64,000 nt of DNA from assembly GCA_004299485.1 (NCBI GenBank), contig SCQP01000001.1:62001-126000 (forward strand). The letters run 5' to 3'. A program made the position numbers and the translations under genes. This document shows, in pieces, positions 2,768 to 63,221 of the stretch. Position 1 is the first letter of the stretch; the number at the start of each line of letters is the position of its first letter. This DNA comes from Acidobacteriota bacterium. Its GTDB lineage: Bacteria > Acidobacteriota > Terriglobia > Terriglobales > SCQP01. Below the pieces are notes generated by a model. That model was not told where the DNA came from and searched no databases. It was given only the letters and a program-made list of their open reading frames with translations.

Positions 2768-4323
2768 CCCCCAATGATCTGCGGCCGCGGTTCCGCGGCA
2801 TCCAGCGCGTCATGCACCCGCTCCAGAGTCCGCGGCTCCCGCGCGAGCCACCCCGCCCCCGCCAGCACCCGCTCCTGCGGCTCCCGGTTCGGAAACAAAC
2901 TCCCGTCCAGATGCTGCGCCTGCGCCTGCAGCTCTCCGCTCCGCCGCGCCAGGCTCCGCGCCACCCGCGTTTCCATCTGCGTAAGCTGATGCTCAATCTT
3001 CTGCGCCGCGCCCTTGGCCGCATCGAGCAGCGTCGGATCCAACTGCTCCAGTTCCCTTTGAAGCTGCGCGAATCCCTCCGTCATCCCCGCCCGCATCGCC
3101 ACCACCCGCTGCTCCACCCCCTCCGGCAGTGCGCGCCGTGCCAGCAAATCAGCCGCAGGCGTCTCGCGCAAATCATCGAGGCCGAGGTCATATTTCTGCA
3201 GCAGCCGCTGCGCCTTGGCATCGAGCAGCGTAACCCGCGCCCGCGGCCACGCCACCGGCTGCGTCACTCCCAGCGCCTGGTACAAAACCGCCGACTGCGC
3301 CAGGTAGGCGGTCTCCGCCGGCCCGACCACGTGCGCCACCGTCGGGAAGGCTACATCCTGCAACACCGGCCGCAGCAGCGCCGCCGGCGTTACCCGCCCG
3401 GGCGCGTCCGCAATCCGCCGCCGCAACTCCTCGCCCGCGATCTGCTCCTCTCCGAGCATCCATCTATCACCGCTCCGCCGCACTCCCAGCCGCCCCTGCG
3501 CCATCTCCAGAAACAACATACTCGCCGCCGCCGTCTGCTCCACCTGCACGTGGTATCCAGCCGCGGTCAGCGCCGCCGCCCGCTCGCCCAGCTTGGCGGC
3601 CAGCTCCGGCTGCCGGTCAAAGGCTTCGAGATAATACGGCCCCCACAGCCCCTGCGCTCCCGGCGCCTGCCGCGGATCAAACACCAGCAGCCCCCACGCC
3701 GCAAACCACCCCCGCAGCAGCTCACCGAACGCCTCGCCCAGCGTCGCCCCCGGACGATAGGCCGCGCGCACCGCGCTCCAATCCCCGGACGTACATCGCT
3801 CCGCCTCGTCGATCACGCCGCCAATCGACTCCTCCAGCCTGACCTCTCCGGTCGGCTGGCCATTCGCCTCCGCCGCAAACGTCGCGCTCAGCCGGTGCAG
3901 CCCGCTCCCGCTATCCAGCACCCACGCCTGATTGACTTCGGCCAGATCATGATCCTGCGTCGCCATCCAGAAGATGGGCACCGCGTCGGTTCCCTGCTCC
4001 CGCAGTCGCTCGGCGATCCGCACCGCCGTCATGGCTTTGTGGAGACTCAGCAGCGGTCCGCCCAGCAGCCCCACCTGCTGTCCGGTAAGGATGGCGACGG
4101 TGCCGTTCTGCGCAAATCGCGCCACCATCTCGCGCTGCTCCGGATTCTGCCGGCTCAGATCCTCCGCCACCGCCCGTCGCGTCTCGTCCGAATACCTGCG
4201 CGCCTTCGCCTGCCGTGCGAGCGCGGCAAAATCAAACGCCGCCCCCGCCGGATAGAATTTCGCGACGCGATCAAATGCAAACAGATAATCGCGGAACAGC
4301 GCGCTCAGCGCCTCCCCGCTCAC
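2764..4323 (-). CDS. bshC: Bacillithiol biosynthesis cysteine-adding enzyme BshC
   Basis: 519 residues, the usual family length. BshC is the last enzyme of bacillithiol synthesis, joining cysteine to glucosaminyl-malate. Recognisable parts are the N-terminal FDRVAKFYP segment, the nucleotide-like loop AILTGQQVGLLGGPL about residues 60-75, a WMATQDHDLAEVNQA block and a C-terminal coiled coil (about 380-450). The GTG start is chosen because the family N-terminus begins there. Upstream in-frame codons are only the TTCCCTC repeat read as low-complexity Arg/Glu/Lys/Gly. The start overlaps the stop of the DapA-like gene as GTGA, which implies translational coupling. bshA and bshB are not in the window. 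Confidence 0.88.
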   Translation of the reverse strand: MSGEALSALFRDYLFAFDRVAKFYPAGAAFDFAALARQAKARRYSDETRRAVAEDLSRQNPEQREMVARFAQNGTVAILTGQQVGLLGGPLLSLHKAMTAVRIAERLREQGTDAVPIFWMATQDHDLAEVNQAWVLDSGSGLHRLSATFAAEANGQPTGEVRLEESIGGVIDEAERCTSGDWSAVRAAYRPGATLGEAFGELLRGWFAAWGLLVFDPRQAPGAQGLWGPYYLEAFDRQPELAAKLGERAAALTAAGYHVQVEQTAAASMLFLEMAQGRLGVRRSGDRWMLGEEQIAGEELRRRIADAPGRVTPAALLRPVLQDVAFPTVAHVVGPAETAYLAQSAVLYQALGVTQPVAWPRARVTLLDAKAQRLLQKYDLGLDDLRETPAADLLARRALPEGVEQRVVAMRAGMTEGFAQLQRELEQLDPTLLDAAKGAAQKIEHQLTQMETRVARSLARRSGELQAQAQHLDGSLFPNREPQERVLAGAGWLAREPRTLERVHDALDAAEPRPQIIGG

Positions 4324-5279
4324 TCCTTTTCCCTCTTCCCTCTTCCCTTTTCCCTCTCCCCTCTTCCCTCTTCCCTTTTCCCTCTTCCCTCTTCCCTCTT
4401 CCCTCGTATCTCTTCCATCGCCTGCTGGATCGCGGCGCGCGCCGCTCCCTCCAGCGCCAGCATCGGCCGCCGCGGCGGGCCTCCATAAAAAAGCCCGGCA
4501 GCATCGACCGCTGCCTTGAGCCCGGCGATCCCGTAAGGTTCGAACGCCCGGCACGCCGGCAGCAGCGCCCGCTGCGCCGCCAGAGCCCGCGCGTGGTCAC
4601 CCGACTTAAAGGCTTCCTCCACCGCGCAGCACGCCCCCGGCGCCGCCGCCGCCAGCGCCAGGATCGCCCCCGCCGCCCCCGCGCACAGACTCGGGTAAAC
4701 GGTTGACGCCCCACCCACCAGCACCGGAAATTCCGGCATTGCGGAAGTGATGCGCACCACCTTATCCATATTTCCGCTCGATTCCTTCAACCCTACGATG
4801 CGCGGATGCGCGGCCAGCTCCAAAATCGTCTCCACCCCCAGATCGACGCCGGTCAGCGGCGGAATGTTATAGAGCACGATAGGCAGCGCCGCCTCCTCCG
4901 CCAGCTCGCGGTAAAACTGCGCCAGCACCGCCTGCGTCATATTCTTCTTGTAATAGTGCGGTGTCCGCACGACAGCGGCCGCGTACCCATAATCCGCCGC
5001 CGCCGCGGTCATGGCGAGGGTTCCGCGCAGCGACTCTTCCCCGGTCCCGGCGAGCAGCAATTTCCCGGACCCACGCGCCGCGCTCGCCGCCCTTCTCAGC
5101 ACCTCGCGCTTCTCGCCGCTGTCGAGGTAAATCGCCTCCCCACTCGACCCCAGCACCAGGTACCCAGCGAGCCCCGTCCCGTTATACGCCCCAAGGTTCG
5201 CGTCCAACCGCTCCGGCAGCAGATTCCCGCCGCCATCAAACGGCGTAGTCACCGCCGCAATAATCCCCCGAAGCTCCAT
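4320..5279 (-). CDS. DapA-family lyase (dihydrodipicolinate synthase/N-acetylneuraminate lyase superfamily)
   Basis: 319 residues. A class I aldolase-type TIM barrel. The GSSGE motif (about 44-48) corresponds to GTTGE of DapA, YNIPPLTG (about 137) carries the catalytic Tyr, and GLKESSG (about 163) the Schiff-base Lys. Substrate is unclear: DapA of lysine synthesis or a related 2-keto acid lyase are both possible. The natural end is near QQAMEEIR. The last 25 or so residues (GKREEGRG-type repeats) are the TTCCCTC array read as protein, a tail not typical of the family. The TGA overlaps the bshC GTG. A further TTCCCTC array lies just upstream of the start. Confidence 0.85.
   Translation of the reverse strand: MELRGIIAAVTTPFDGGGNLLPERLDANLGAYNGTGLAGYLVLGSSGEAIYLDSGEKREVLRRAASAARGSGKLLLAGTGEESLRGTLAMTAAAADYGYAAAVVRTPHYYKKNMTQAVLAQFYRELAEEAALPIVLYNIPPLTGVDLGVETILELAAHPRIVGLKESSGNMDKVVRITSAMPEFPVLVGGASTVYPSLCAGAAGAILALAAAAPGACCAVEEAFKSGDHARALAAQRALLPACRAFEPYGIAGLKAAVDAAGLFYGGPPRRPMLALEGAARAAIQQAMEEIRGKREEGRGKREEGRGEREKGRGKREKE
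4327..4405. repeat. TTCCCTC heptamer array inside the DapA-like coding end
   Basis: About 11 units of the same heptamer as at 2566-2767, here translated as the C-terminal tail of the DapA-like protein and lying immediately upstream of the bshC start. Seven is not a multiple of three, so the array reads as a seven-residue peptide repeat in each frame. Confidence 0.92.
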
Positions 5280-5337: not shown

Positions 5338-6702
5338 TCAGACTTCCGCCAGCGGAAAGCTCCGCCGCGCCCGCGACGGCTCCAGGTAATTCTGCCGATG
5401 CGTCGTCACCAGAAACTTGGTAAACCCGGTATTCTCCTCCGGCAGGTTGTACTTCTTCTGCAGGTCCATGCCGTCCATCTCTTTCCGGATCTTCTCGAAC
5501 AACTGCCCCGACGGCGCAAAGCCGATAAAGTGAACGCCGGCCTTAGGCGTGGCGCTCACCGCCCCCGCGGCATTGAACTTGAACGGGTTCTCGACCGTGT
5601 CAAAGTCCTGCCGCAAAAAGATCACGGTGCCCTTCGGCAGCTTGTCGCCGTACACGGTAGTCGTGTCCTTGGTCACCCGCGACAGAAACTGCATCTGCGC
5701 GTTATGTCCAATCAAATGATGGGTTTTAGCGTCATCCTCAAGCTGCTCCTTGAAGGTCGAGGTCCCCGGCGCCTGCGAAGGCGAAAGGTTTTCCGGCGCT
5801 TCCGCCCGCCTCGGGTCAAACATCCGGTGCAGCCGTCCCTGCGCATTGAGGTTGTACCACCCCTCGAGGTCAATGGCGATATGCGACAGATGCATCATGG
5901 TCCCGTGCGCAAAGTAGGTATCCGGTGTCTGGTCGGTATACCCGGGGATGGTCTCAAAGCTCGGCAGCGGTCCAGCCGCCAGGCCATGCACATGGCTGGA
6001 GGTAAAGCCCATAAACAGCATGGCGCCCTCAGGAATTTTCTCCGCGCCCGGAATCCGCAGCCGTGTTGCCATGGCGCGCGGCATCCCGTGTCCGGCGAAC
6101 CCGCGCCGGATGGAGGTTACATTGAACAGGTCCCCGAGGTAGAAGCTCTCGGCGGGAATGCCATTCAGCGTCTGCGCCCCCGGCTGAAACAGCGCCCGCA
6201 TCACATCATTCAAGTGCTGCTTGAAGTCCGACTTGAAATGAAAACAAATATCGTTCTCTTCCAGAATCAAATTCGCCGGATCCTTGGGAAACCGAATGGC
6301 GTCATTGACAGCCCAATCGCCCGCCTTGCCCGCCTCGTCCAGTGCCCTGGGCATGTACTTGTCGGCAACCGCCGCCGGAATATAGTTCCGGAAGTACGGC
6401 AGCCCATAGGCGACCTGAATCAGGATCCCTCCCGGATGCAGCGGATACACCGCCTCGACGGCCTCCAGCGCCGCCGTCAGCCTCTGCTGCGCCCGTTTCA
6501 GCGCCGGCTTATCGCCCCGCGGCACGGTCAACTTGGCGGTGACGACGGAGTGCCACAGCGGCACGACCGCCACCGGCACCCCCACATGATCCTCGACGGT
6601 CACACCCGGCAGCTCATACTGCGTCAACGGCGGCGTCCCGCTCACCCGTTTCGCATAATTAACCACCCCCGCCCAATCAAACCCCCCCGCCTTCGTCGCC
6701 AT
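5338..6702 (-). CDS. DyP-peroxidase-like protein
   Basis: 454 residues from the ATG at 6700-6702, chosen because GAGGGA stands about 8 nt upstream; a start 42 nt further upstream is also open but less likely. The pattern resembles the dimeric alpha/beta-barrel dye-decolourising peroxidase superfamily: LFMGF, then GTMMHLSHIAIDLEGWY (possible haem-ligand His), then GVHFIGFAPSGQLFEKIR near the end. The classical GXXDG catalytic motif is not seen, so peroxidase activity is uncertain. No Tat or Sec signal. It heads the minus-strand run DyP-like, DapA-like, bshC, DUF58, so a link to redox or thiol metabolism is possible but only inferred. Confidence 0.55.
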   Translation of the reverse strand: MATKAGGFDWAGVVNYAKRVSGTPPLTQYELPGVTVEDHVGVPVAVVPLWHSVVTAKLTVPRGDKPALKRAQQRLTAALEAVEAVYPLHPGGILIQVAYGLPYFRNYIPAAVADKYMPRALDEAGKAGDWAVNDAIRFPKDPANLILEENDICFHFKSDFKQHLNDVMRALFQPGAQTLNGIPAESFYLGDLFNVTSIRRGFAGHGMPRAMATRLRIPGAEKIPEGAMLFMGFTSSHVHGLAAGPLPSFETIPGYTDQTPDTYFAHGTMMHLSHIAIDLEGWYNLNAQGRLHRMFDPRRAEAPENLSPSQAPGTSTFKEQLEDDAKTHHLIGHNAQMQFLSRVTKDTTTVYGDKLPKGTVIFLRQDFDTVENPFKFNAAGAVSATPKAGVHFIGFAPSGQLFEKIRKEMDGMDLQKKYNLPEENTGFTKFLVTTHRQNYLEPSRARRSFPLAEV

Positions 6703-6823
6703 AATCCCTCGTCTCCCTCCCGCAAAAATTCCCACTCCGTGCACAATTTTACCACCGGCCTCCCGTTCGCCCGCCCGACCAACTCCCTCTTCCCCCTACA
6801 CTCCTCTGGCGCAGAATGGAGCT

Positions 6824-7392: not shown

Positions 7393-9426
7393 TCACCCTG
7401 CTAAGTCGGGCAGCAAACCCGAGACCCCTCCCCCATCGAGATCAACCCTCGCCCCATGGCAGACCGGGTAGGAGCAAGTGTGGCGCGCGATCTCATCCAA
7501 AATGCCCGGCTTCGAAAGTCGCCTCAGTAACCACCGGCGCCGCCAGTAATCGACGAGGAGATCGGTTCTCAATTTGGCACGAGTCTGCGGAATCAGGTAC
7601 CGAGGCAAATCGGCGCCGTCAAGCAGGACCTCTCGAAAATTTGAGGCCAGAGCCACGCCGTAGACAAGCCGCTTACTACCGTGCCTCAGGAGCATGTCGG
7701 CAGGCAGCCCAAGCAGCGTGAGGGCTTCCCTGATCTTCCTCATAAGGGGGTTGACACCCTCCCCGAAAATCGAATTCACCCTGCGCGCCTCGCCCGCACG
7801 GCCGAGCAGCATCCCCATCATGCGCAGCGTCTCCTTGCTGAAATGGAACGATCCAAACCCCTCGCTCATCCCGAGGCAATCGTACTCGACCCTATTCTCC
7901 GCCCGACCGCCGAACAGTGCGGCGCTCGCCTTGATTCGACTGTATTGATTGAGAGAAGACCCGTAAAGGCTCGTCGTGCAGAGAAGCGCAAGTTGGGCGC
8001 CCCGCTTCACCCCCGCTCCCCGCATACCCGAGGCGATGAGGCTCACCTGGTTCCCGTAGCGAGCGCGATAAGCGCCCGTGATTTCCGGACTGCAGAGCAG
8101 AAGCGAGACCAGCTTGCCCCCGAGCAGCGCATTGTACGGGGCGACGGCACCGCAGACCGAAATATCCATCATGTTTATGCCGACACGCGCGGCTTTCACG
8201 TGGCGAACGATCTGACCGATCGCCCGCCGAAATCGTCCTGACTCCAGAAGGGCACGCCAGGCCTCGACAGTAATGTCGGCATCAAGCCGGACAGCCCGAA
8301 AAAGCAAACGAATCCCAAGCATCGTCGCAAGCTGCCTCGATCTCTTGCTCCTGTACAAACTCGTCTCCGCGAGCTCGACCCAGTCCATGCCCGCCAAATC
8401 TCCCGTGTAGCTTTGCCTCGCCGCCTGGGGGTAAAGCCGATGGCGCCTGATGGCGCTTGCCGAATCCTCTGCCAGCCGCTGGACAACCGGCGGCGACGGA
8501 TTCCTGATATCCGCACGCGTCAACACCCCGCCACGAAGCAGGTCTCGCACGTAAATGCCCCGAATAAACCCGTCGAGTTCGTCGACCAGCCATCTGACAC
8601 ACGACCTCGGCGATTTCGCCCCGCGAAATCGCCTAACCACAGCCTCGGCGTCCCAACCGATCCAACTGTCGCGAGTTGACTGCTGTACCACCGAACTCGC
8701 TAGGCTCGCGATGCCCATCACCGGGTGGTTTGGGGCCGCCGCATCCCTCACCAGGATCATCATTGAGCGGCCAGGAACGCTGCGGTACGACGTCACCCAC
8801 GTATGACGGAAATAGCGCCATATATCGCCTAGGCGGATGCCGGTGTGTTCGCAAATCGCGCCTGGCTCCACGACCTGAAGATAAGGACGGATGACACCCG
8901 AAAGCGCGGCGGCCCGGATGTCTTCCTCGTCTCCGCCTAAGACGTCGCGCAGCCGGCGCGTCAAATCTTTGCCGTCCCGCATGAGCGAGAAGATAGAATG
9001 CCAACCTCGCGGGGTGAGCCTCCGACGCTCCATTCCCCTCACGAATTCGACCACCGATCGCTCTTGGAGTTGAGAGTCGCGCTCGATGAGGTGCGCCCGC
9101 CGAATGCGCTGCTTCTCGCTCTCTGGCGTCGCACCGTCTGGGAACTCGAGCACAACCGACGGCTCCGTCGCCGCAATCCTCCAGCCCTGCGTCAGGAGGT
9201 CGATCACAACGCTAAGCGTCGCCAGGAAACCCAACTCCCCACTGAGGGCGGCCCCCGTGGGCCGGCAAATAGGCGCCAAGTGGGCAGCTCGCATCCTAAT
9301 CACATGCCCTGCGGACAGCCCAGCCTCGCCTAGCGCGTCCCGCTCTCCGCGAATTGCAGAACACCTCTGCCGAAACGCCGGCAAAAGCACACCAAGCTTC
9401 GGGTTCAGCGAAATCGTTAGCGGCAT
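7393..9426 (-). CDS. DruA-like protein (DUF4338), probable anti-phage component
   Basis: 677 residues, ATG with AGG 5 nt upstream. The central half matches the DruA/DUF4338 pattern as I know it: RYFRHTW (204-210), SVPGR (216-220), LVRDAAAPNHPVMGIASL (225-242), RDSWIGW (252-258), then CGAVAPYNALLGGKL (425-439) and TTSLYGSSLNQY (484-495). The roughly 200-residue N-terminal part and the C-terminal 150 residues are unassigned. DruA is known from Druantia anti-phage systems, where its biochemistry is unclear. Here no DruE helicase or other Druantia partner is present. Instead the gene follows a GHKL ATPase by 6 nt and a sigma-like gene before that, implying one operon. Longer than simple DruA proteins. 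Family call is from motif memory and needs a profile search. Confidence 0.72.
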   Translation of the reverse strand: MPLTISLNPKLGVLLPAFRQRCSAIRGERDALGEAGLSAGHVIRMRAAHLAPICRPTGAALSGELGFLATLSVVIDLLTQGWRIAATEPSVVLEFPDGATPESEKQRIRRAHLIERDSQLQERSVVEFVRGMERRRLTPRGWHSIFSLMRDGKDLTRRLRDVLGGDEEDIRAAALSGVIRPYLQVVEPGAICEHTGIRLGDIWRYFRHTWVTSYRSVPGRSMMILVRDAAAPNHPVMGIASLASSVVQQSTRDSWIGWDAEAVVRRFRGAKSPRSCVRWLVDELDGFIRGIYVRDLLRGGVLTRADIRNPSPPVVQRLAEDSASAIRRHRLYPQAARQSYTGDLAGMDWVELAETSLYRSKRSRQLATMLGIRLLFRAVRLDADITVEAWRALLESGRFRRAIGQIVRHVKAARVGINMMDISVCGAVAPYNALLGGKLVSLLLCSPEITGAYRARYGNQVSLIASGMRGAGVKRGAQLALLCTTSLYGSSLNQYSRIKASAALFGGRAENRVEYDCLGMSEGFGSFHFSKETLRMMGMLLGRAGEARRVNSIFGEGVNPLMRKIREALTLLGLPADMLLRHGSKRLVYGVALASNFREVLLDGADLPRYLIPQTRAKLRTDLLVDYWRRRWLLRRLSKPGILDEIARHTCSYPVCHGARVDLDGGGVSGLLPDLAG

Positions 9427-9432
9427 CGTAAC

Positions 9433-10917
9433 CTAGTCGAGAAACGCCGTGAGTGCGTTGCTCCATGATCTCCTCAACTTCTCCGCGATCTCCCTCTCAA
9501 CCCCCGACCTCAACGCGCACTCGGCTCGCGCCGCTGCCAGAAGCAGCAACTGCAAACGCTCAAGCACCCGTGCTGCGTCCACCGAACCAGCACCGAGAAG
9601 AGGCCCGTAAACCTTCCGATAGAAATTGTGGTCCCGGTTGAGAGCAACCTTGATTCTGTCCCGCACGATAGACGGAACGTAAAAGCTTAGCGCACCCGCG
9701 GCTGTTTCGTCGATAACGTAGCCCAGACGCGACCCCCGAAGCCGCACGTCAGGAACCGCTGCACCGCGCGTGCTGATCGGCTGCATGAGGTGATCCCGTT
9801 GCCCCGCGACCGACACACTCCGGGGCCCGTCCAATCCCTTTCGCACCGAGAGATAGCGCCTGCGCACCTCGGCATTCAGCTTGCGAGCGATCTGCTCGAC
9901 GTCTGGGACAAGAATGTCGCTGAGGTCGCCCCGCGGGTTCACCGTCTGCTTCGTGTGGGTAACACCGAACATTTCGTCGAGCTCCGGCGTGAAGGCAACC
10001 TCGCAGCGCCACCAATCGTCGTAATTCTCCTTCCGTTTCGAACCCATGAAGTACCACCCCCGGTCGATCTCGCGACCGGCACGCAGGACGGAAACCCCGG
10101 CCGCCTTCGCGATGCCAAGCCGGTTCTTCTCGCTGTTCGGCAGGCCGCACCAACGTTCAATCGGGAGCACCGAAAACCTGACCGTCACCAGTGACCGTGC
10201 GCTCTCACCCCCCGACGCAGAGACCTCGTAGGCAAGCGGCGGCCCATACGCCTCGGCGCCGGTCAGATTACTACCTTCACGCAGGAAAAGCGGGTCAAAC
10301 GGGTCGACCAGATCGCCGTTCACCCGAATCATCCCCCCATCGTAGAGCCGCTGCCGAAATATTCGCCCCAAGTCCGCGCGCAGTCTGCGAGCCTGAGGTC
10401 GCACCGTCTGGAAATCCAAGCGATCGCACCTCGTGAGGGTCACCCTGGTCCCCGACGGGCACGCCGGGAGATCCCCTGCGTGGTCAGGTAGGATGCGCAC
10501 CGGAACTGGGACGCCGCGGAGCGAGCCAGATGCTATCGCGTCGACATCGAGGTAAGTCGCCCAGACATTGTGCGGGCTGGTCCAGCTTTCGACGTCTACC
10601 CGGCGAGCTTGACTCAAGCAACTGTTGGGCAGACCCATGCCATAGCGCCCTGCGCCCAAACGAGAGCCGAAGCGCGTGCTCCCCCCGAACTGTAACGCCA
10701 ACTGCATAGTGCCGGCCGGCATCCCTGCTCCGTCATCGGCCACCGAAAGCCGCATGGCACCGCCGTCGCCCCGACTCACGGAAATATCTACGGTCTTCGC
10801 GTCAGCCTCGAAAGAGTTGTCCACCAACTCGGCTATCGCCGCCGACGTGCCCTTGTACCCTGAGTCTCGGGCCGATTCGATAAACGAGCGTATCGCAACA
10901 AGAGGGTAGCTCCCCAC
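9433..10917 (-). CDS. GHKL/MORC-like ATPase, shorter paralogue
   Basis: 494 residues, GTG start with AGGGA upstream, 6 nt after the sigma-like gene and 6 nt before the DruA-like gene. The Bergerat ATP-binding fold is intact: N box E30-LVDN34, G1 box DDGAGM (61-66), G2/lid GAGRYGMGLPNS (88-99). A transducer-like domain follows, with VLRAGREID near 275 and FTPELDEMFGVTHTKQ near 310. These two blocks are shared with the 630-residue ATPase at 11685-13577. No histidine-kinase, endonuclease (DQHA-type) or Hsp90 C-terminal features are seen. It most resembles bacterial MORC/MutL-like ATPases associated with restriction and defence loci. Likely a nucleotide-driven dimerising clamp; partner unknown. 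Confidence 0.82.
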   Translation of the reverse strand: MGSYPLVAIRSFIESARDSGYKGTSAAIAELVDNSFEADAKTVDISVSRGDGGAMRLSVADDGAGMPAGTMQLALQFGGSTRFGSRLGAGRYGMGLPNSCLSQARRVDVESWTSPHNVWATYLDVDAIASGSLRGVPVPVRILPDHAGDLPACPSGTRVTLTRCDRLDFQTVRPQARRLRADLGRIFRQRLYDGGMIRVNGDLVDPFDPLFLREGSNLTGAEAYGPPLAYEVSASGGESARSLVTVRFSVLPIERWCGLPNSEKNRLGIAKAAGVSVLRAGREIDRGWYFMGSKRKENYDDWWRCEVAFTPELDEMFGVTHTKQTVNPRGDLSDILVPDVEQIARKLNAEVRRRYLSVRKGLDGPRSVSVAGQRDHLMQPISTRGAAVPDVRLRGSRLGYVIDETAAGALSFYVPSIVRDRIKVALNRDHNFYRKVYGPLLGAGSVDAARVLERLQLLLLAAARAECALRSGVEREIAEKLRRSWSNALTAFLD

Positions 10918-10923
10918 GGTTCC

Positions 10924-11511
10924 CTACCCCAGCGCTACAAGGCCCGCACAGTGCCGCCTAACCGCCATTAATTTCCGCGCCAAGGCAAACCGACTAACCC
11001 CAAGATCCAGAGCGACGGCTGCCAGGGGCTCGTGCTCGCACCAAACCCTGCAGCAGGCAAGCACCACGCCACCTCCAAAGCCCGCAAAAATCGCCGCCAG
11101 GAGTTGGCGCGCCTGGATCGCGACGGACAGGTCGCTGAGAACCGGCGCGACGGCCGCCTCGTCAAACGCCACGAACTCACGCCCGCATCCCGGATCCGGA
11201 TAAATTCCGGTGCGGCGGAGGCCCTGCCTGACCCGCACCTTCTTCACGGCATTTGACACCCTGCCAACTAGGTACTGTCGCGCTGTGCAGTTGACGTCAC
11301 GGAGGCGCACCAGGGAGGGGTCGATCAAACCGAGGAACACCTCCTGCACGACCTCGTCGATCACGTCCACCGCGAGGCCGTAGCTACGCTTCCTCGCCAT
11401 CCGCAGCAACTCAGGGCGGACCACGGAATGAAACTCTTCAAACTGGGAGAAATCCCGACGCTGGTACGCCTCGATCAGGCGCCCCAACTCATCGTCAGTA
11501 CAGGCTTCCAC
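10924..11511 (-). CDS. Sigma-70-like (ECF-type) protein in the ATPase operon
   Basis: 195 residues from GTG 11509-11511, chosen for the AAGGAG exactly 5 nt upstream. Residues about 10-95 look like sigma region 2 (EFHSVVRPELLRMARKR, then IDEVVQEVFLGLI). Residues about 145-190 form a helix-turn-helix resembling region 4 (LAAVALDLGVSRFALARKL). The linker is short and the region 4 match weak, so it may be a sigma-derived DNA-binding or adaptor protein rather than a working sigma factor. It is the first gene of the tight sigma-ATPase-DruA-like unit. A TATAAT box lies about 115 nt upstream and a terminator separates it from the longer ATPase. Confidence 0.7.
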   Translation of the reverse strand: MEACTDDELGRLIEAYQRRDFSQFEEFHSVVRPELLRMARKRSYGLAVDVIDEVVQEVFLGLIDPSLVRLRDVNCTARQYLVGRVSNAVKKVRVRQGLRRTGIYPDPGCGREFVAFDEAAVAPVLSDLSVAIQARQLLAAIFAGFGGGVVLACCRVWCEHEPLAAVALDLGVSRFALARKLMAVRRHCAGLVALG

Positions 11512-11627
11512 AAAAACTCCTTCTGGGCCGCACGGCCTCAAAACTTCCTCAAGTCTTGAAGGTCGATGCAGCGCCAGGGAGCATGGCGGCGCGGTGGCCG
11601 CACCTGCACTGCCTTCAGGGCAAGAAC

Positions 11628-11633
11628 ATTATA
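11628..11633 (-). promoter_or_regulatory. Candidate -10 box for the sigma-ATPase-DruA-like unit
   Basis: A perfect TATAAT on the minus strand, lying just after the T-run of the preceding terminator and 116 nt before the GTG start. No consensus -35 is seen 16-18 nt upstream, where the terminator stem lies, so an activator or an alternative sigma factor could be needed. Confidence 0.4.
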
Positions 11634-11635
11634 TC

Positions 11636-11669
11636 AAAAAAATCGGTGGCCGGCTCGGCACCGGCCACC
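11636..11669 (-). terminator. Rho-independent terminator after the longer ATPase gene
   Basis: Minus-strand stem GGTGGCCGG / CCGGCCACC (9 perfect pairs, 7-nt loop) followed by a run of seven T. It begins 15 nt after the stop of the 630-residue ATPase and should end or reduce that transcript before the sigma-like gene. Confidence 0.85.
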
Positions 11670-11684
11670 AACTCGAATCAGCAA

Positions 11685-13577
11685 TCACGCCACGCTTTCG
11701 TTTCCCTCTTCAGGTTCGTCCGTCGCCTTCGTGCTTGCGTCCAGGTTCTGCAAAGCGACCGCCAGGAAGCGGCTCCAGACCTCCTCCCGTTGGTAGCGGT
11801 ACTGCGCCAGGGCCAGCTCCTCGGTGATCTCCAACTCAGCCTTGGCAAGCGTGATCAGAAGTACGTCCAGCGCTTCCTTCGCCTTGTACCCACCGGCGAG
11901 GTTCAGGATCTCGCCATAGCACAGCGCGAAGAACGGATGCTGCCGGTTGATCCAAACGACCATCTGAAAGCCAACCCACTCGGGCCGGTAGAAGGGGCCA
12001 CCGGGTTCGTCGAGATAATCAATCTTGATTTTCCGGCGCTCCTCCTCCTCCTCCCGGGCCCTCAAGATCTCCGCGATCGGCACTTCCCTCTCGCGCGCCT
12101 CCCGCTCCACCTCCTCCTGAGCGCGCCTCCGGGCATCCGACTTTGCCCTGTCCGGCATTGACAGCTTCCTACCCGTGATCGCCGGAACCGCAGCCGCCGC
12201 CTCCTCCGCCGGCGTCGGGGCGTCCGTGGCCCTGGCGTTCGCCTCCTTTCTCTTGCGCCTCTCCCTCTCCCGGGTTTTCTCCTGCCAGCCGTTCTCACGA
12301 TGCAGGAGATCGTCCACCTTTTCATGAGCGAGCAGCCGCCAGAAGTCGTCGATCGGCCGAACACGCTGCTTGTCGTTCGTGATGCCAAAAACGTCGTCTA
12401 GCTCCGGCCCGAAGCTTACCTCAATGCCCCAGTGATAAGCGTAGCTCTGGAGCAACGGCCAGTCCCCGAGGCCGTTGGCCTTGGCTCGGGCCGAACGCGG
12501 GAATGCATCGAGGGTCTCAATTTCACGGCCAGCGCGGACGAACGACATCCCGCGTCGGGATTGGCGTATCTCGAACCGCTGCCGCGATTCGGGGCTCGCG
12601 TCCTTAACTTTCCTGTCGCCGACTGCGAAACCGAAGGGCAAACGCGAGACACGAATCGCAACTGCCCCGAGCGCGACAAACCCCGGCGCGTCCACGTCGA
12701 CTGCAGCCGCCTCGGTCACCTTCTCGAGCCGCATCGCGCCCGTAACGGCGTCAGTGAAGTATCGCACCCAGATAGTCATGGGCTGACCGAGGACATCGAT
12801 TGCGCCACCGTTCGACTCCGGCTCATAAAGACGCCCCTTCGGGTTCAGGAAAAGCGGATCAACAGGCAATACCCGCGTGCCATTCACCACCAACTCGCGG
12901 CCGTCCAATAAGTACTGGTAGGTAACACCGAAGTCTTCGAGCAGGTGGCCCTCTAGGGATTTCGGCGACTTGTACGTGAGTTGGTCCGGGTCGCGCCAGA
13001 CAATGACCGTGCCGTGGCTAAAATCAAACCCGGATTTCTCCATATAGCGCGATACGAAATCGGGCAGCTCCGCTTCAACCGGCTCGGGCACCGACTGCCG
13101 GTCAAAGGACTTGTAGTCGTCGAGGTCCAGCCAGGCCTTGATAATCCGCTTGCTCTTTCCTGTGCGAGTGTAAACCTCGACCTTTTTCGCCTGGTTGATC
13201 GAAGCGTTCGGCAGGCCGAAGCCGAACTTGCCAATTAAATTTGGCTCGTCGAAATGCGTTCCACCGCCCCAACTGAGCGCGAAGCGCGCCATCTTGTCCA
13301 CCATGCCCGAGCCATCGTCGATGAAGGCAACCGACGAAACCGCTGGTCGAGTCGAGTGAACCACAGTGTCAAAAATGACATGGACTCTCGTGGCTTTCGC
13401 CTCGAATGCATTGTCGACGATCTCGCGAGCAGCCACGGCCGTGTTTCGGTAGCCATTCTGGCGCTGCGAGTCGAGCGCACGCTTTGTATTGAAGAGCGGG
13501 AAGTCGAAATCAGGGGGTAGTTCCGCAAGGTACTTCTGCTGCCGCTCCAGTTCGCTAAGAAGGACATCTTTGGTCAT
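11685..13577 (-). CDS. GHKL/MORC-like ATPase, longer paralogue with charged coiled region
   Basis: 630 residues from the ATG at 13575-13577, which has AAGGA 7 nt upstream; an ATG 9 nt earlier is possible. The N-terminal ATPase motifs are EIVDN (about 52-56), DDGSGM (about 87-92) and GKFGFGLPNA (about 116-125). The second domain carries FVRAGREIE (about 350) and FGPELDDVFGITNDKQ (about 390-405), matching the shorter paralogue. Unique to this copy is a highly charged Arg/Glu/Lys/Ala segment (about 425-515), probably a coiled coil, followed by a folded C-terminal domain with WVGFQMVVWINRQHPFF. It is the first gene of the island operon but has its own terminator. A short inverted repeat lies at its 5' end. 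Confidence 0.82.
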   Translation of the reverse strand: MTKDVLLSELERQQKYLAELPPDFDFPLFNTKRALDSQRQNGYRNTAVAAREIVDNAFEAKATRVHVIFDTVVHSTRPAVSSVAFIDDGSGMVDKMARFALSWGGGTHFDEPNLIGKFGFGLPNASINQAKKVEVYTRTGKSKRIIKAWLDLDDYKSFDRQSVPEPVEAELPDFVSRYMEKSGFDFSHGTVIVWRDPDQLTYKSPKSLEGHLLEDFGVTYQYLLDGRELVVNGTRVLPVDPLFLNPKGRLYEPESNGGAIDVLGQPMTIWVRYFTDAVTGAMRLEKVTEAAAVDVDAPGFVALGAVAIRVSRLPFGFAVGDRKVKDASPESRQRFEIRQSRRGMSFVRAGREIETLDAFPRSARAKANGLGDWPLLQSYAYHWGIEVSFGPELDDVFGITNDKQRVRPIDDFWRLLAHEKVDDLLHRENGWQEKTRERERRKRKEANARATDAPTPAEEAAAAVPAITGRKLSMPDRAKSDARRRAQEEVEREAREREVPIAEILRAREEEEERRKIKIDYLDEPGGPFYRPEWVGFQMVVWINRQHPFFALCYGEILNLAGGYKAKEALDVLLITLAKAELEITEELALAQYRYQREEVWSRFLAVALQNLDASTKATDEPEEGNESVA

Positions 13578-13910
13578 TGTTCTCATCCTTTATTTGCGGC
13601 TCATGGCCGCTGGGATTAAGGGGACTCTCGCCGCCCTCAACTCTGCTATTTCCCCGAAAGTACCCCCCCGAGCGGCCAACCACAAAATATTTCCGGCGTG
13701 GCAGCCCCCGGGACCCAAGTGTGCCCACTCCAGCGACGAGACGGGCCGACGGGGAATCAACCGGATCGGCGTCACGGCTGGTGCTGCTGCCGCCACGGAC
13801 CGTGGCCTGATCGACAGCGCGCCCTGCGCGGCAAGGGAAACTCGCCCTGAGACAAATGGACGCGACAACCCCCAGCATCAATCCGGTTATGATCGGGCGC
13901 ATAAACGGGT
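13578..13910. promoter_or_regulatory. Upstream region of the ATPase island with an inverted repeat near the start
   Basis: No gene is supported in this 333-bp gap. GCGGC-TCATG-GCCGC (13596-13610) is a perfect 5-bp inverted repeat about 20 nt before the longer ATPase start and could be a hairpin or operator affecting initiation. The rest marks the border between the island and the decayed Fic locus. Confidence 0.35.
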
Positions 13911-14258
13911 ATGAAGGACCGTGCCACCCTCCTCGCCACGCACGAACTCCTCGCCTCCTGTCCGGGCTCGATGAGTTCAAAGACGCCTGGCAGGCCTTCC
14001 GCTCGCTCCCGCCCGAGCGCCTTGCCGCCCCCGCCGCCTAGCCACCATCGAGAGCATCGGCGCCTCCGCCCGCCCCGCCGGCTGCCACCTGACCGACCGC
14101 GAAGTCGAATGGCGCCTCGCCAACTTCGACGCCGCCCGCTTCGGCACGCCCGAACGCGGGGCCGCGCCGCCGGCGCTCCGGGCCAAGTCGGCGCGGACGG
14201 CCGCGGGACTCAATGCACCGGCGGCTCGCTCCCGGCAAACAGCGCGGCGCAGACCCGG

Positions 14259-14345
14259 CCGGGCTGAGGCTCGCGGGGCCCCCAGCCCGGACGAGCATCA
14301 AGCGGGTGGTGTGGCGCAGCCACGCCAGGCCCCGCGCCAATCAAT
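14259..14345 (+). repeat. 87-bp double-hairpin (REP-like) element, copy A
   Basis: First stem CCGGGCTG / CAGCCCGG (14259-14266 with 14283-14290), second stem GTGGC-gca-GCCAC (14311-14323), ending in CCCCGCGCCAATCAAT. It aligns along its whole length with copy B and, like it, spans exactly 87 bp in the frame of the Fic pseudogene. Confidence 0.75.
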
Positions 14346-14727
14346 CGAGCAGGCCGCCGCCGGCTACGCCGCCGCCCTGGAGACGGTCCTCCGCTCCGCA
14401 TCACAAATTCCCCTCACCCAGCCCCTCCTCCGCCAACTTCATCGTGATCTTTTTCAGTACACCGACCCCGACCTACGCCCCCGCCGCAGCGCGCCCGCCA
14501 GCCCGCGCCTCGCCGAGTTGCTCTCGTGGCTCGACGAGCAGCATCAATCCCACCGCCTCCATCCCCTCCTCACCATCGCCGTCTTCCTTGCCGTCTTTCT
14601 CGATGTCCGCCCCTTCCCCGACGGCAACGCCCGCCGGAGCCGCATCCTCACTACCCATCTGCTCCTGCGAGCCGGCTACGCCTACGTCCCCTACGCCTCC
14701 CTCGACCACGAGATGATCGAGGGCGCA

Positions 14728-14814
14728 GGCAGGGCCGGGGCCGCAGGGCCCCCGGCCCTGCCGAGCAGAAGCGGGTCGCCTGGCGAAGCCAGGCGGGGCC
14801 CCGCGCCAGTCAAT
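14728..14814 (+). repeat. 87-bp double-hairpin (REP-like) element, copy B
   Basis: First stem GGCAGGGCCGGG / CCCGGCCCTGCC (12 perfect pairs), second stem CGCCTGGC-gaa-GCCAGGCG (8 perfect pairs), ending in CCCCGCGCCAGTCAAT. It is inserted between the Fic motif and the NDRQLFFESL segment, adding 29 codons without breaking the frame. Confidence 0.8.
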
Positions 14815-15216
14815 GACCGGCAACTCTTCTTCGAGAGCTTGCGCCAAACCCAAACCACCTTTGGGACCCAAACCCCCAACTGGCGCCCCTGGCTTGAGGC
14901 CTTCCTGCGCGCCCTCCTGCAGCAAAAGCGCCGCCTCTCCGTGAAGCTCGAACGTGAAAAAAACGCCCTCGCCGATCTCTCTCCGCTCGCCGTCAAAATC
15001 CTCGACTACGCCCGCGACCAGGGCCGCGTCACCAACCGCGCCATAGCACGTGAATCCGCCGCCAGCCCCAACACCCTCAAAGCCACCTTCACCGCGCTCG
15101 TCGCCAAAGGCCTCCTCACCCGCCACGCCGCCGGCCGCTCCACCTGGTACTCCCTCCCCTGACATCGTTCCGCACCACCCCCCACCCACCACCCAGGGCG
15201 CATCAAACTGGCCTGT

Positions 15217-60761: not shown

Positions 60762-63221
60762 CTAGTCCAGGCGCAGGGCGCGGTTGGGATCGATGTGGAC
60801 GGCGCGCCGAGCAGGCAGCCAGCAGGCAAAGAAGGCGGCGAGCAGCAGGACCGCGGGGGCGATTAGGAAGCTGGTCGCGTCGAAGCCACCGATGCCGAAG
60901 AGCAAGCTGCCCAGACCGCGGCTGAGCAGAGCGGCAACGCCGAGACCGGCGAGGAGACCGGCGGCAATCATGGCCATGCCATTGCCGAACACCAGTCCCA
61001 TCACGTCGCCGGCGCGGGCGCCGAGCGCCATGCGGATGCCGATTTCGCGGCGCCGCTGGGCCACCGAATACGACATGACGCCATAGGTGCCGACCGCGGC
61101 CAACAGCAGTGCCAGAATGCCGAAGACCGCCAGCAGCTCAGCGCCGAGGGCGGGCGCGGCGAGCAGATTGGCTAACTGTTGCGAGATCAGGCGCGTGCGC
61201 GGCGGGGGCAGGCTGGCATCCAGGCTGTGGATCACGCCGCGCAGGTCTGCGAGCGCCGCGCTGGGATCACCGTGCGTGCGTACCAGGACGGCGCCGGGAC
61301 CAGGATGCTGGCGGAAAGCGAAGTACACCTGCGCTTGCGGCGGCTCGCCGAGCGAGGCGTACTTGACCGTGGGAACTTCGCCCACGACGGTCACGTCCCA
61401 GGTCTCCTGCAGAAAGCTGAGGTGCTTGCCGACAGGGTTCTGGCCGGGCCAGAGGCGGTGCGCCAAGGCGGTGTTGACCACCGCAACCATGGGGGAAGTG
61501 GCGGTATCGTCCGGGCTGATGCCGCGACCGCGCAGGAGGGCCATGCCCATGGTGTGGAAATAACCGGGGCTGACCGCGGTGACGGGCGTGAGCTTGCCGT
61601 TGCGGGTATCGGAGGTGTCGACGCCGCCGGGAAAGGTGGTGCGCGCCAGGCCGCCAAACAGGGGCGGCGCATTGGTGACGCTGACGGCGGCCACCTGGGG
61701 AAGGGCGGCCAGCCGGGCGCGGGCGTTCTGGTAATACTGGTGGATCTGCTCGGGCGTGTAATGTGCAGCCGCCAGATCGGGGGCGAGGACGACCAGTTGA
61801 GCGGCATCGAAGCCGGTACTCACTTTTTGAGCGTTCAGCAGGCTGTGGACAAACAAGCTGGCGCCCACCAGGGCGATCAGCGAAAAAGCGACCTGCACGA
61901 CGACCAGCAGGCCGCGCAGGCTGTACCAGTGCTGACTGCCGCTGGGGGTCTCGGTGCGATCGCGGAGGGAGGCGAGCGGGGCCGTGCGCGTGGCGCGCAG
62001 CGCGGGTGTGAGGCCAAACAGAACCGTAGCGACCAGGGCGACGAGGAAGGTAAACAGCAGCACTGCGGGGCTGAGGGAGGGGTGAAGGTGGTTGCCGAAC
62101 CCGGCCGGACGCAGCGCCCAAAGCGCATTGCGCGCCAGATAGGCGAAACCGATGCCCACGGCGCCGCCGAGCAGGCCGAGCAGCAGGCATTCGGTCAGAA
62201 GCTGCCGCAACAGCCTTCCCCGCCCTGCGCCGAGCGCCAGCCGGACGGCAAACTCACGGCTGCGCTGGGTGGCGCGGACGAGCAACAGGTTGGCCACGTT
62301 GGCACAGGCGATCAGCAGCACCAGGCCGGCAATGGCAAACAGCAGTTCGCCGGCGAGCAGAAACGCGGGGCGGGCGTTGGGGTTGACGTTGCTATAGCTC
62401 ATCGGCACCAGCGTCACCGTGCGGCCGGCATCATCGGTGGGATATTGCTGGGCCAGATGCGCTGCCAACCCCGCCATGGCGGCCTGCGCCTGCTGGAGGG
62501 TGACGCCGGGCTTGAGCCGGGCGACCGCGGTGGCAAACAGCGCACGCCGCTGGTTGTACCAATTTTTCAATACGCCGGTCAACACCTGGTCGTGCATGGC
62601 CAGGGGTATCCAGACATCCGGGCTGCCGAGGACCCCGACGTTTTGAAAACCACTGGGGGCGATACCGATGACGGTGAAAGGTAGACCGTTCAGGTCCACA
62701 GAGCGGCCGATCAGGCCGGGAGCGGCGCCGAATTGGCGGACCCAGAGATTGTGGCTGAGGATAACGACGGGATGAGCACCGGGAACATCGTCTTCGTCGG
62801 CGCGGAAATTGCGGCCGGGCGCGATGGACTCACCCAGGAGCGGAAAGAAATTGGCGTTCACCAGGGCGGCATTGAGTTGCTCGGCGTGGCCTTGGGTGGT
62901 CCAGGACACGCCCGTGCGCACGTCCATGGACATGGCAGAAAAAACGGTGTTCTCGCGCTGGAGATCGCGCAGATTCACGTAGGAGTTGGGCAGGTAGCCC
63001 TGGGCGGCGTTGCGTGTGTCCTGCGTGAAGATCTCGACCGCACGCGAGGGATTCTGCACCGGTACGGGGCGCAGAAACACGGTATTGACGAGCGTAAAGA
63101 CCGTGGTGTTGACGCCGATGCCGAGTGCCAGGGACAAAATGGCGGCGATGGCAAAACCGGGGCGGTGCCAGAGCAGGCGCGCGCCGCCGCGCATATCCCG
63201 AATCCAGGAGGCGGTATCCAT
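60762..63221 (-). CDS. ADOP-type ABC permease (duplicated MacB/FtsX), second copy
   Basis: 819 residues from ATG 63219-63221. Short N-terminal stretch (WIRDMRGGARLLWHRPGF), helix SLALGIGVNTTVFT, then periplasmic domain, FtsX core, second periplasmic domain and a second FtsX core with QRRREIGIRMALGARAGDVM. Same architecture as the gene at 39899-42298 but clearly diverged. No adjacent ATPase. Confidence 0.92.
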   Translation of the reverse strand: MDTASWIRDMRGGARLLWHRPGFAIAAILSLALGIGVNTTVFTLVNTVFLRPVPVQNPSRAVEIFTQDTRNAAQGYLPNSYVNLRDLQRENTVFSAMSMDVRTGVSWTTQGHAEQLNAALVNANFFPLLGESIAPGRNFRADEDDVPGAHPVVILSHNLWVRQFGAAPGLIGRSVDLNGLPFTVIGIAPSGFQNVGVLGSPDVWIPLAMHDQVLTGVLKNWYNQRRALFATAVARLKPGVTLQQAQAAMAGLAAHLAQQYPTDDAGRTVTLVPMSYSNVNPNARPAFLLAGELLFAIAGLVLLIACANVANLLLVRATQRSREFAVRLALGAGRGRLLRQLLTECLLLGLLGGAVGIGFAYLARNALWALRPAGFGNHLHPSLSPAVLLFTFLVALVATVLFGLTPALRATRTAPLASLRDRTETPSGSQHWYSLRGLLVVVQVAFSLIALVGASLFVHSLLNAQKVSTGFDAAQLVVLAPDLAAAHYTPEQIHQYYQNARARLAALPQVAAVSVTNAPPLFGGLARTTFPGGVDTSDTRNGKLTPVTAVSPGYFHTMGMALLRGRGISPDDTATSPMVAVVNTALAHRLWPGQNPVGKHLSFLQETWDVTVVGEVPTVKYASLGEPPQAQVYFAFRQHPGPGAVLVRTHGDPSAALADLRGVIHSLDASLPPPRTRLISQQLANLLAAPALGAELLAVFGILALLLAAVGTYGVMSYSVAQRRREIGIRMALGARAGDVMGLVFGNGMAMIAAGLLAGLGVAALLSRGLGSLLFGIGGFDATSFLIAPAVLLLAAFFACWLPARRAVHIDPNRALRLD

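Follow-up and report, generated by a model that had tools for sequence, protein, structure and literature searches.

The question raised by this locus is whether four adjacent genes of an acidobacterium, two of them encoding MORC-type ATPases (GHKL-1 and GHKL-2), one a sigma-like protein and one a long protein of the DruA family (DruA-L), make up a defence system, and how such a system would be related to Druantia. The genes lie in a stretch of 64,000 nucleotides (the window; positions 62,001 to 126,000 of contig SCQP01000001.1, assembly GCA_004299485.1) of an Acidobacteriota bacterium of the order Terriglobales. With a probability of about 0.5, the set is regarded as one form, lacking DruE, of a Druantia-related defence module that moves laterally and would act through ATP-driven clamps and a GNAT-like DruA-L. 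At the same even odds, the core of this module would consist of a MORC/paraMORC-type GHKL ATPase and DruA-L, with the ECF-sigma-like protein and the second GHKL protein as accessories. A role of the module in defence against invading DNA is considered likely; the confidence in the specific mechanism is lower than that in the defence role.

The four open reading frames of the set are all on the minus strand, and an open reading frame check of the window found each of them open and full length. GHKL-1 (11685..13586, minus strand, 633 aa) is followed at its 3' side by a predicted intrinsic terminator (11640..11674, minus strand) with a T-run and a stem of 15 pairs, compared with 5-6 pairs in the other seven candidates of the terminator scan. 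Because this predicted terminator stands before the sigma-like gene, GHKL-1 is probably a transcription unit of its own. The gene of the ECF-sigma-like protein (10924..11541, minus strand, 205 aa, TTG start) heads an operon that continues with GHKL-2 (9433..10917, minus strand, 494 aa, GTG start) and DruA-L (7393..9426, minus strand, 677 aa), the spacing being 6 nt at each junction. An earlier note on this DNA had described four same-strand genes of which the last three are 6 nt apart, and this description was confirmed, the upstream end of the set being 13586 here and 13577 there.

The same note had assigned the 677-residue protein to DUF4338/DruA. The Pfam family PF14236 (DruA) matches it strongly, with 109 bits at a cut-off of 27, in two stretches: profile positions 62-122 correspond to residues 200-262 and positions 130-296 to residues 418-602, the C-terminal, GNAT-like part of the DruA domain (7621..8175, minus strand). 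The domain is interrupted by an insert of about 155 aa, which is missing from short DruA proteins, and is preceded by an N-terminal extension. According to the secondary structure of the predicted model, a mostly helical insert comprises residues 249-417 (8176..8682, minus strand), and the Pfam stretches meet across it at profile position 122/130. The usual DruA of type I loci measures about 400-430 aa as against 677 aa for DruA-L. The PADLOC model PDLC00001, a DruA model of 675 positions, gave 575 bits across 594 residues, which implies that long DruA was already known to the makers of the PADLOC library. No DruA-L was found in phage records. An AlphaFold2 model built on an alignment of eight natural sequences had a mean predicted local distance difference test (pLDDT) of 74 and a predicted template modelling score (pTM) of 0.71. 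Foldseek returned no match to it at E <= 0.001. In a second structural comparison, the top rows were mostly GNAT acetyltransferases with a best Z of 6.8 (root-mean-square deviation 3.4 over 145 residues), a Z below 8 not being taken as proof of fold. This list agrees with the placement of DUF4338 in the GNAT fold (PMC10853773). A GGK loop at residues 436-438, within the C-terminal part, is invariant in the alignments and would be a candidate acyl-CoA loop.

Both window ATPases were described earlier as MORC-like Bergerat-fold proteins with intact N, G1 and G2 motifs, and this held. HATPase_c_3 scored 71.8 bits in GHKL-2 and 51.9 bits in GHKL-1 (Pfam cut-off 25), and the N (ELVDN / EIVDN), G1 (DDGAGM / DDGSGM) and G2 (GRYGMGLPNS / GKFGFGLPNAS) motifs are kept in both. 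The top PDB match of either profile was human MORC2 (E 9e-13 for GHKL-1 and 1.3e-10 for GHKL-2), followed by MutL. The label 'MORC-like' is therefore right, as these are the closest solved structures by profile. At the position expected for an S5 domain, a (T/D)KQ motif is conserved in all GHKL homologues, as a motif of the sequence. A reading of the GHKL proteins as small anti-sigma kinases of the RsbW kind was ruled out by their subfamily and size.

Whether the genes belong together was judged from their recurrence. Searches seeded with DruA-L covered plasmids, viral contigs and sampled genomes, and one search was seeded with GHKL-1. A GHKL gene was found directly upstream of DruA-L in 11 independent loci, that is, in 11/11 of the long-DruA loci that are not of the DndFGH kind: the window, Roseivivax plasmids, a Leisingera plasmid, Paracoccus pTAV4, Novosphingobium kunmingense, four IMG/VR contigs (L033-L036) and two further genomes (G655 and G855). 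In the 10 intact loci, -38 to +67 nt separate the GHKL stop from the DruA-L start. In the remaining one, the pseudomonadotal G855 (L143:11072-12151), the GHKL gene is cut to its C-terminal part and has no ATPase domain, while DruA-L is intact with 680 aa; this is either a natural ATPase-less pair or early decay. None of the nine short-DruA loci has an upstream GHKL gene (0/9). Roseivivax and Leisingera carry the full set of four genes on plasmids, and Novosphingobium has it as well. The combination is not due to chance, because it was found again in unrelated genomes, and the proposal that the homologues recur together is borne out by this neighbourhood survey, in which the genes recur as a unit in mobile or defence contexts. 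Other neighbours of the module are NERD-helicase and toxin-antitoxin genes, and its carriers include plasmid or viral contigs.

The GHKL protein next to DruA-L has also diverged together with it. Over ten loci, the pairwise identities of the two proteins are correlated with a Mantel r of 0.93 (p < 1e-4), and with r = 0.88 when the near-copy of Leisingera is left out. The trees of both proteins join the window with L033, L034 and L035, apart from the rest, with a support of 99/99 each. Relatives of GHKL-2 at 45-47% identity always adjoin a long DruA, and its profile, run over 2.9 million viral contigs, retrieved L033, L034 and L035 only, all of them known DruA-L contigs. GHKL-1 falls in another clade, composed of the window, Novosphingobium (54% identity), Roseivivax and Leisingera (51%), with a support of 100/100; members of this clade have so far been seen only alongside a sigma-like gene and a long DruA. 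No relatives of GHKL-1 were found in viral contigs, and its search of the species-genome collection, with two short patterns, reached Novosphingobium alone. The window locus is thus a mosaic, since the GHKL-2/DruA-L pair comes from one lineage and GHKL-1 from another. On these comparisons GHKL-2 keeps to DruA-L as its constant partner, and GHKL-1 behaves as an accessory. The idea of paired GHKL proteins had to be given up: the second one is optional, and the key partner is the GHKL protein encoded directly upstream of DruA. Within the phylum of the window, 1/396 sampled genomes has the set, namely this one; the other sampled genomes contain no close relatives of it and have only short DruA.

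The sigma-like gene, which encodes a protein of 193-214 aa, accompanies the GHKL/DruA-L pair in 5 loci. In the window, Novosphingobium and G655 it immediately precedes GHKL-2, and in Roseivivax and Leisingera it lies behind DruA-L in convergent orientation. The call of a sigma-70-like protein is weak for the window protein taken alone, which matches TIGR02937 with 16.9 bits (E 0.004), below the cut-off of 42.9. It is backed by the counterparts in G655, a streamlined alphaproteobacterial genome (52.1 bits, E 5.5e-14, above the cut-off), and in Leisingera (sigma-family match, E 7e-6); that of Roseivivax is annotated as a sigma-70 factor by NCBI.

The relation to Druantia depends on DruE. This gene is present in 5/11 loci: it is contiguous in Paracoccus, L033 and L035, lies across the sigma gene in Leisingera and is about 9 kb off in Novosphingobium. 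A NERD-UvrD helicase gene follows DruE in Paracoccus, Leisingera and Novosphingobium, and L033 has in addition a DruK-like nuclease. The order in L035 is GHKL–DruA-L–996 aa–DruD–DruE, which is the ordinary type I order with GHKL and DruA-L replacing the short DruA. These linked DruE, DruD or DruK-like genes in five relatives tie the module to anti-phage defence. Five loci are without DruE: the whole genomes of the window and of G655, the whole Roseivivax plasmid and the contigs L034 and L036, which may be fragments; G855 was read over 20 kb only. A search for DruE in the whole genome of the window, which is 98.8% complete, gave only a generic helicase match of 20.9 bits. The PADLOC models of DruB, DruC and DruD matched none of the four window proteins, the rest of the genome not having been searched for them. 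The earlier statement that no usual Druantia partner is present stands as far as DruE is concerned; the implied lack of any connection does not, in view of the five relatives that carry it. DruE, a defining feature of Druantia type I, was tested for and is absent, which bars the window set from that type; it is classed here as a DruE-less, Druantia-related 'MORC–DruA' module. It shares with type I a DruA-family protein, the DruE of five relatives and the gene order of L035. Unlike type I, as exemplified by Nitrosococcus (L069) and the genome G1120 (L146), where a DruA of 410-430 aa is encoded without GHKL, the window has a long DruA, added MORC-type ATPases, a sigma-like protein and a genome without DruE.

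How such a module might work can be outlined from its parts. On ATP, MORC and MutL ATPases form dimers that hold DNA or loop it. Like these, the GHKL proteins would dimerise on ATP and then close around, loop or compact the invading DNA. Such a clamp is suggested by the grip of MORC and MutL on DNA together with the looping that Iyer et al. (2008; PMC2292703) proposed for GHKL+S5 ATPases of prokaryotic restriction loci. The sigma-like protein would position the complex on DNA or RNA polymerase, or control its expression. DruA-L, with its putative core of a GNAT acyltransferase, might ride on GHKL-2 and, after closure of the clamp, acylate a bound target or otherwise switch the response on. The earlier note's assignment of sensing or gripping to the GHKL proteins and of the effector role to DruA is likewise hypothetical. 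In relatives with DruE and the NERD-UvrD helicase, unwinding and cutting of the trapped DNA would follow; in the window set, which has no dedicated helicase, the invader may be silenced or be blocked by a modification.

Several observations weigh against this interpretation. Structural support for the GNAT fold of DruA-L is moderate, with the best Z at 6.8 and no significant Foldseek match. When the sigma-like protein of the window was compared by profile with its positional counterparts, no significant similarity emerged, so that the equivalence of these proteins across loci is based on family hits and position. The predicted structure of the window protein was unusable (pLDDT 45, pTM 0.30, alignment of two sequences). 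Moreover, DruE is retained in about half of the relatives, and the form without it may therefore be an incomplete system.

A reading that goes further, though it is rather unlikely, is that the set is a helicase-independent defence or silencing system in its own right, in which an ECF-sigma-like adaptor to DNA or RNA polymerase guides the MORC clamps to the DNA of the invader, a GNAT-type DruA-L acyl-marks a bound protein, nucleic acid or tRNA, and Druantia-like versions later recruited DruE. If true, this would make it a bacterial counterpart of eukaryotic MORC-based silencing. The presence of DruE near the set in five relatives and its absence from the window genome could also mean that the locus is a remnant of a larger Druantia-like operon that has lost DruE, perhaps with a nuclease or helicase, and is now inactive or awaiting re-supply. 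Decay does occur in the module, as the GHKL protein beside DruA-L in G855 has lost its ATPase domain, and a broken Fic gene is found close to the window set. However, the four window open reading frames are full length with all motifs intact while their neighbours decayed, and DruE-less versions are known from four other independent records, among them a whole genome and a whole plasmid, which disfavours repeated functionless loss. We consider the remnant explanation unlikely. That the set is not a defence system at all, and serves instead as a regulatory or maintenance module of a mobile element, is quite improbable. The sigma-like and GHKL proteins would then control transcription or switch partners, and DruA-L would serve as the modifying enzyme. 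Sigma-factor binding is known from GHKL proteins such as RsbW, the ECF-sigma-like gene is a conserved companion, and the set is carried by plasmids and viral contigs. The window ATPases, however, are of the MORC/MutL type with long C-terminal parts, match HATPase_c_3, MORC2, MutL and MzaB and not the small anti-sigma kinases, and have relatives that sit among helicases and nucleases. Least probable is abortive infection by DruA-L as a GNAT toxin of the AtaT/KacT type that acetylates aminoacyl-tRNA and is restrained by GHKL until infection: AtaT and KacT are among the top Foldseek rows (Z about 5 in the structural list), but these rows are insignificant, generic GNATs score higher, no antitoxin-like partner is present, and ordinary Druantia DruA is not known to be toxic.

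The Druantia-related defence module can also be set against other known systems. In the profile libraries searched, no named system of the same composition was found, as the earlier note had supposed. The literature search, which did not cover subscription papers and supplements, yielded no publication joining DUF4338/DruA with MORC/GHKL and no description of the function of DruA in Druantia. The available portions of the PADLOC paper (PMC8565338) and of a 2025 YprA/Druantia study (PMC12458937) contain no GHKL-DruA combination. The MORC/paraMORC proteins of restriction loci, in the part of PMC2292703 consulted, resemble the window ATPases in their GHKL motifs, a KQ motif in what may be an S5-like part, lateral mobility and defence context, whereas their partners are superfamily II (SFII) helicases and nucleases, with no DruA reported there. 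No SFII helicase adjoins the window set, though five relatives have DruE. Among named defence families, MzaB of the MZA system scores best with both window ATPases, but membership was rejected, the equivalog scores of 58.1 and 38.9 bits lying far under the cut-off of 850, and no other Mza protein was matched among the four.

Outside the DruA-L context, the nearest GHKL proteins (28-35% identity) are those of phosphorothioate-linked helicase-GHKL-PLD cassettes, which differ in their partners and form a separate clade in the GHKL tree. This cassette, with a superfamily 2 (SF2) helicase and a phospholipase-D-like (PLD) protein, recurs at L050-L055, L064, L133 and L134, its carriers being plasmids from many phyla as well as viral contigs. 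Its neighbours are DUF4007, PAPS-reductase-like and cysteine desulfurase genes, and it is probably a restriction module for phosphorothioate systems. The other long DruA proteins (haloarchaea, Hymenobacter, L037-L039, G798 and G824) adjoin or are fused to SspF/DndF-like proteins. Wherever the locus is readable, SspG- and SspH/FtsK-like genes are present. These DndFGH/SspFGH-like loci have the same long DruA as the window, and unlike it they have an SspH-like engine of the FtsK/HerA type and no GHKL ATPase. A fusion of long DruA and SspF/DndF-like protein, followed by SspG- and SspH/FtsK-like genes, was seen in two phage-like contigs (L037:9707-13303 and L038:9794-13366) and in a pseudomonadotal genome (L145:8401-12246). 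In Novosphingobium (L032:3913-9662), two genes lie in divergent orientation between DruE and the four genes of the set, one for a DrmD/DpdE/BrxH-like helicase and one for a 968-aa protein that matches no family; they may be another defence pair.

In the genome, the set lies within a variable interval at about 5.3-16.5 kb of the window, which genus-mates lack. The flanks, BshC–DHDPS and HtrA–M56, are conserved in genus-mates, and synteny is lost at both inner edges. No DruA-L was found in the genus- and family-mates searched. The guanine-plus-cytosine content of the set (60-63% versus 65%) is slightly lower, which is not decisive for foreignness. The window contains no tRNA, direct repeats were not found at the edges of the island, and an Rfam scan of the window gave no match. 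The neighbours had been called decayed toxin-antitoxin-like genes; this applies to a Fic/DOC protein gene at 13911-15162, which appears broken (Fic domain in one frame at 14311-15162, upstream coding in other frames), the others being just small antitoxin-like open reading frames. Inside the Fic gene sits a repeat (14240-14370, with a second stretch near 14720-14820) of about 90-110 bp, of which at least 40 dispersed copies, 85-94% identical, occur in the genome; it is found in genus-mates as well. The copies have in common a GC-rich hairpin whose stem counts 12 pairs, have no Rfam match and are like repetitive extragenic palindromic (REP) elements or miniature inverted-repeat transposable elements (MITE). 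Downstream of the set, the gene of a DUF7405 protein (5338-6744, 468 aa) is included in the variable interval because it has no clear match in 40 relatives (one at E 9e-4). Purine-rich simple repeats (GGGAAGAGGGAAGAGG-like, translated as GKREEGRGKREEG) occur at 2600-2700 and 4300-4500, at the gene ends near BshC and DHDPS.

The MORC–DruA module is recurring and mobile and appears to be as yet without a name. Through it, one branch of the DruA family has a dedicated partner that evolves along with it, a MORC-type ATPase, and bacterial relatives of MORC are set beside a specific partner that is not a helicase, the whole being a small set of three or four genes. Long DruA emerges as an exchangeable part, whose partners are GHKL clamps in one group and DndFGH-like engines in the other. 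A distinct helicase-free system is a serious possibility. If the DruE-less form works, sensing and marking would be separable from DNA destruction in Druantia, and the set would offer a simple bacterial model of MORC silencing.

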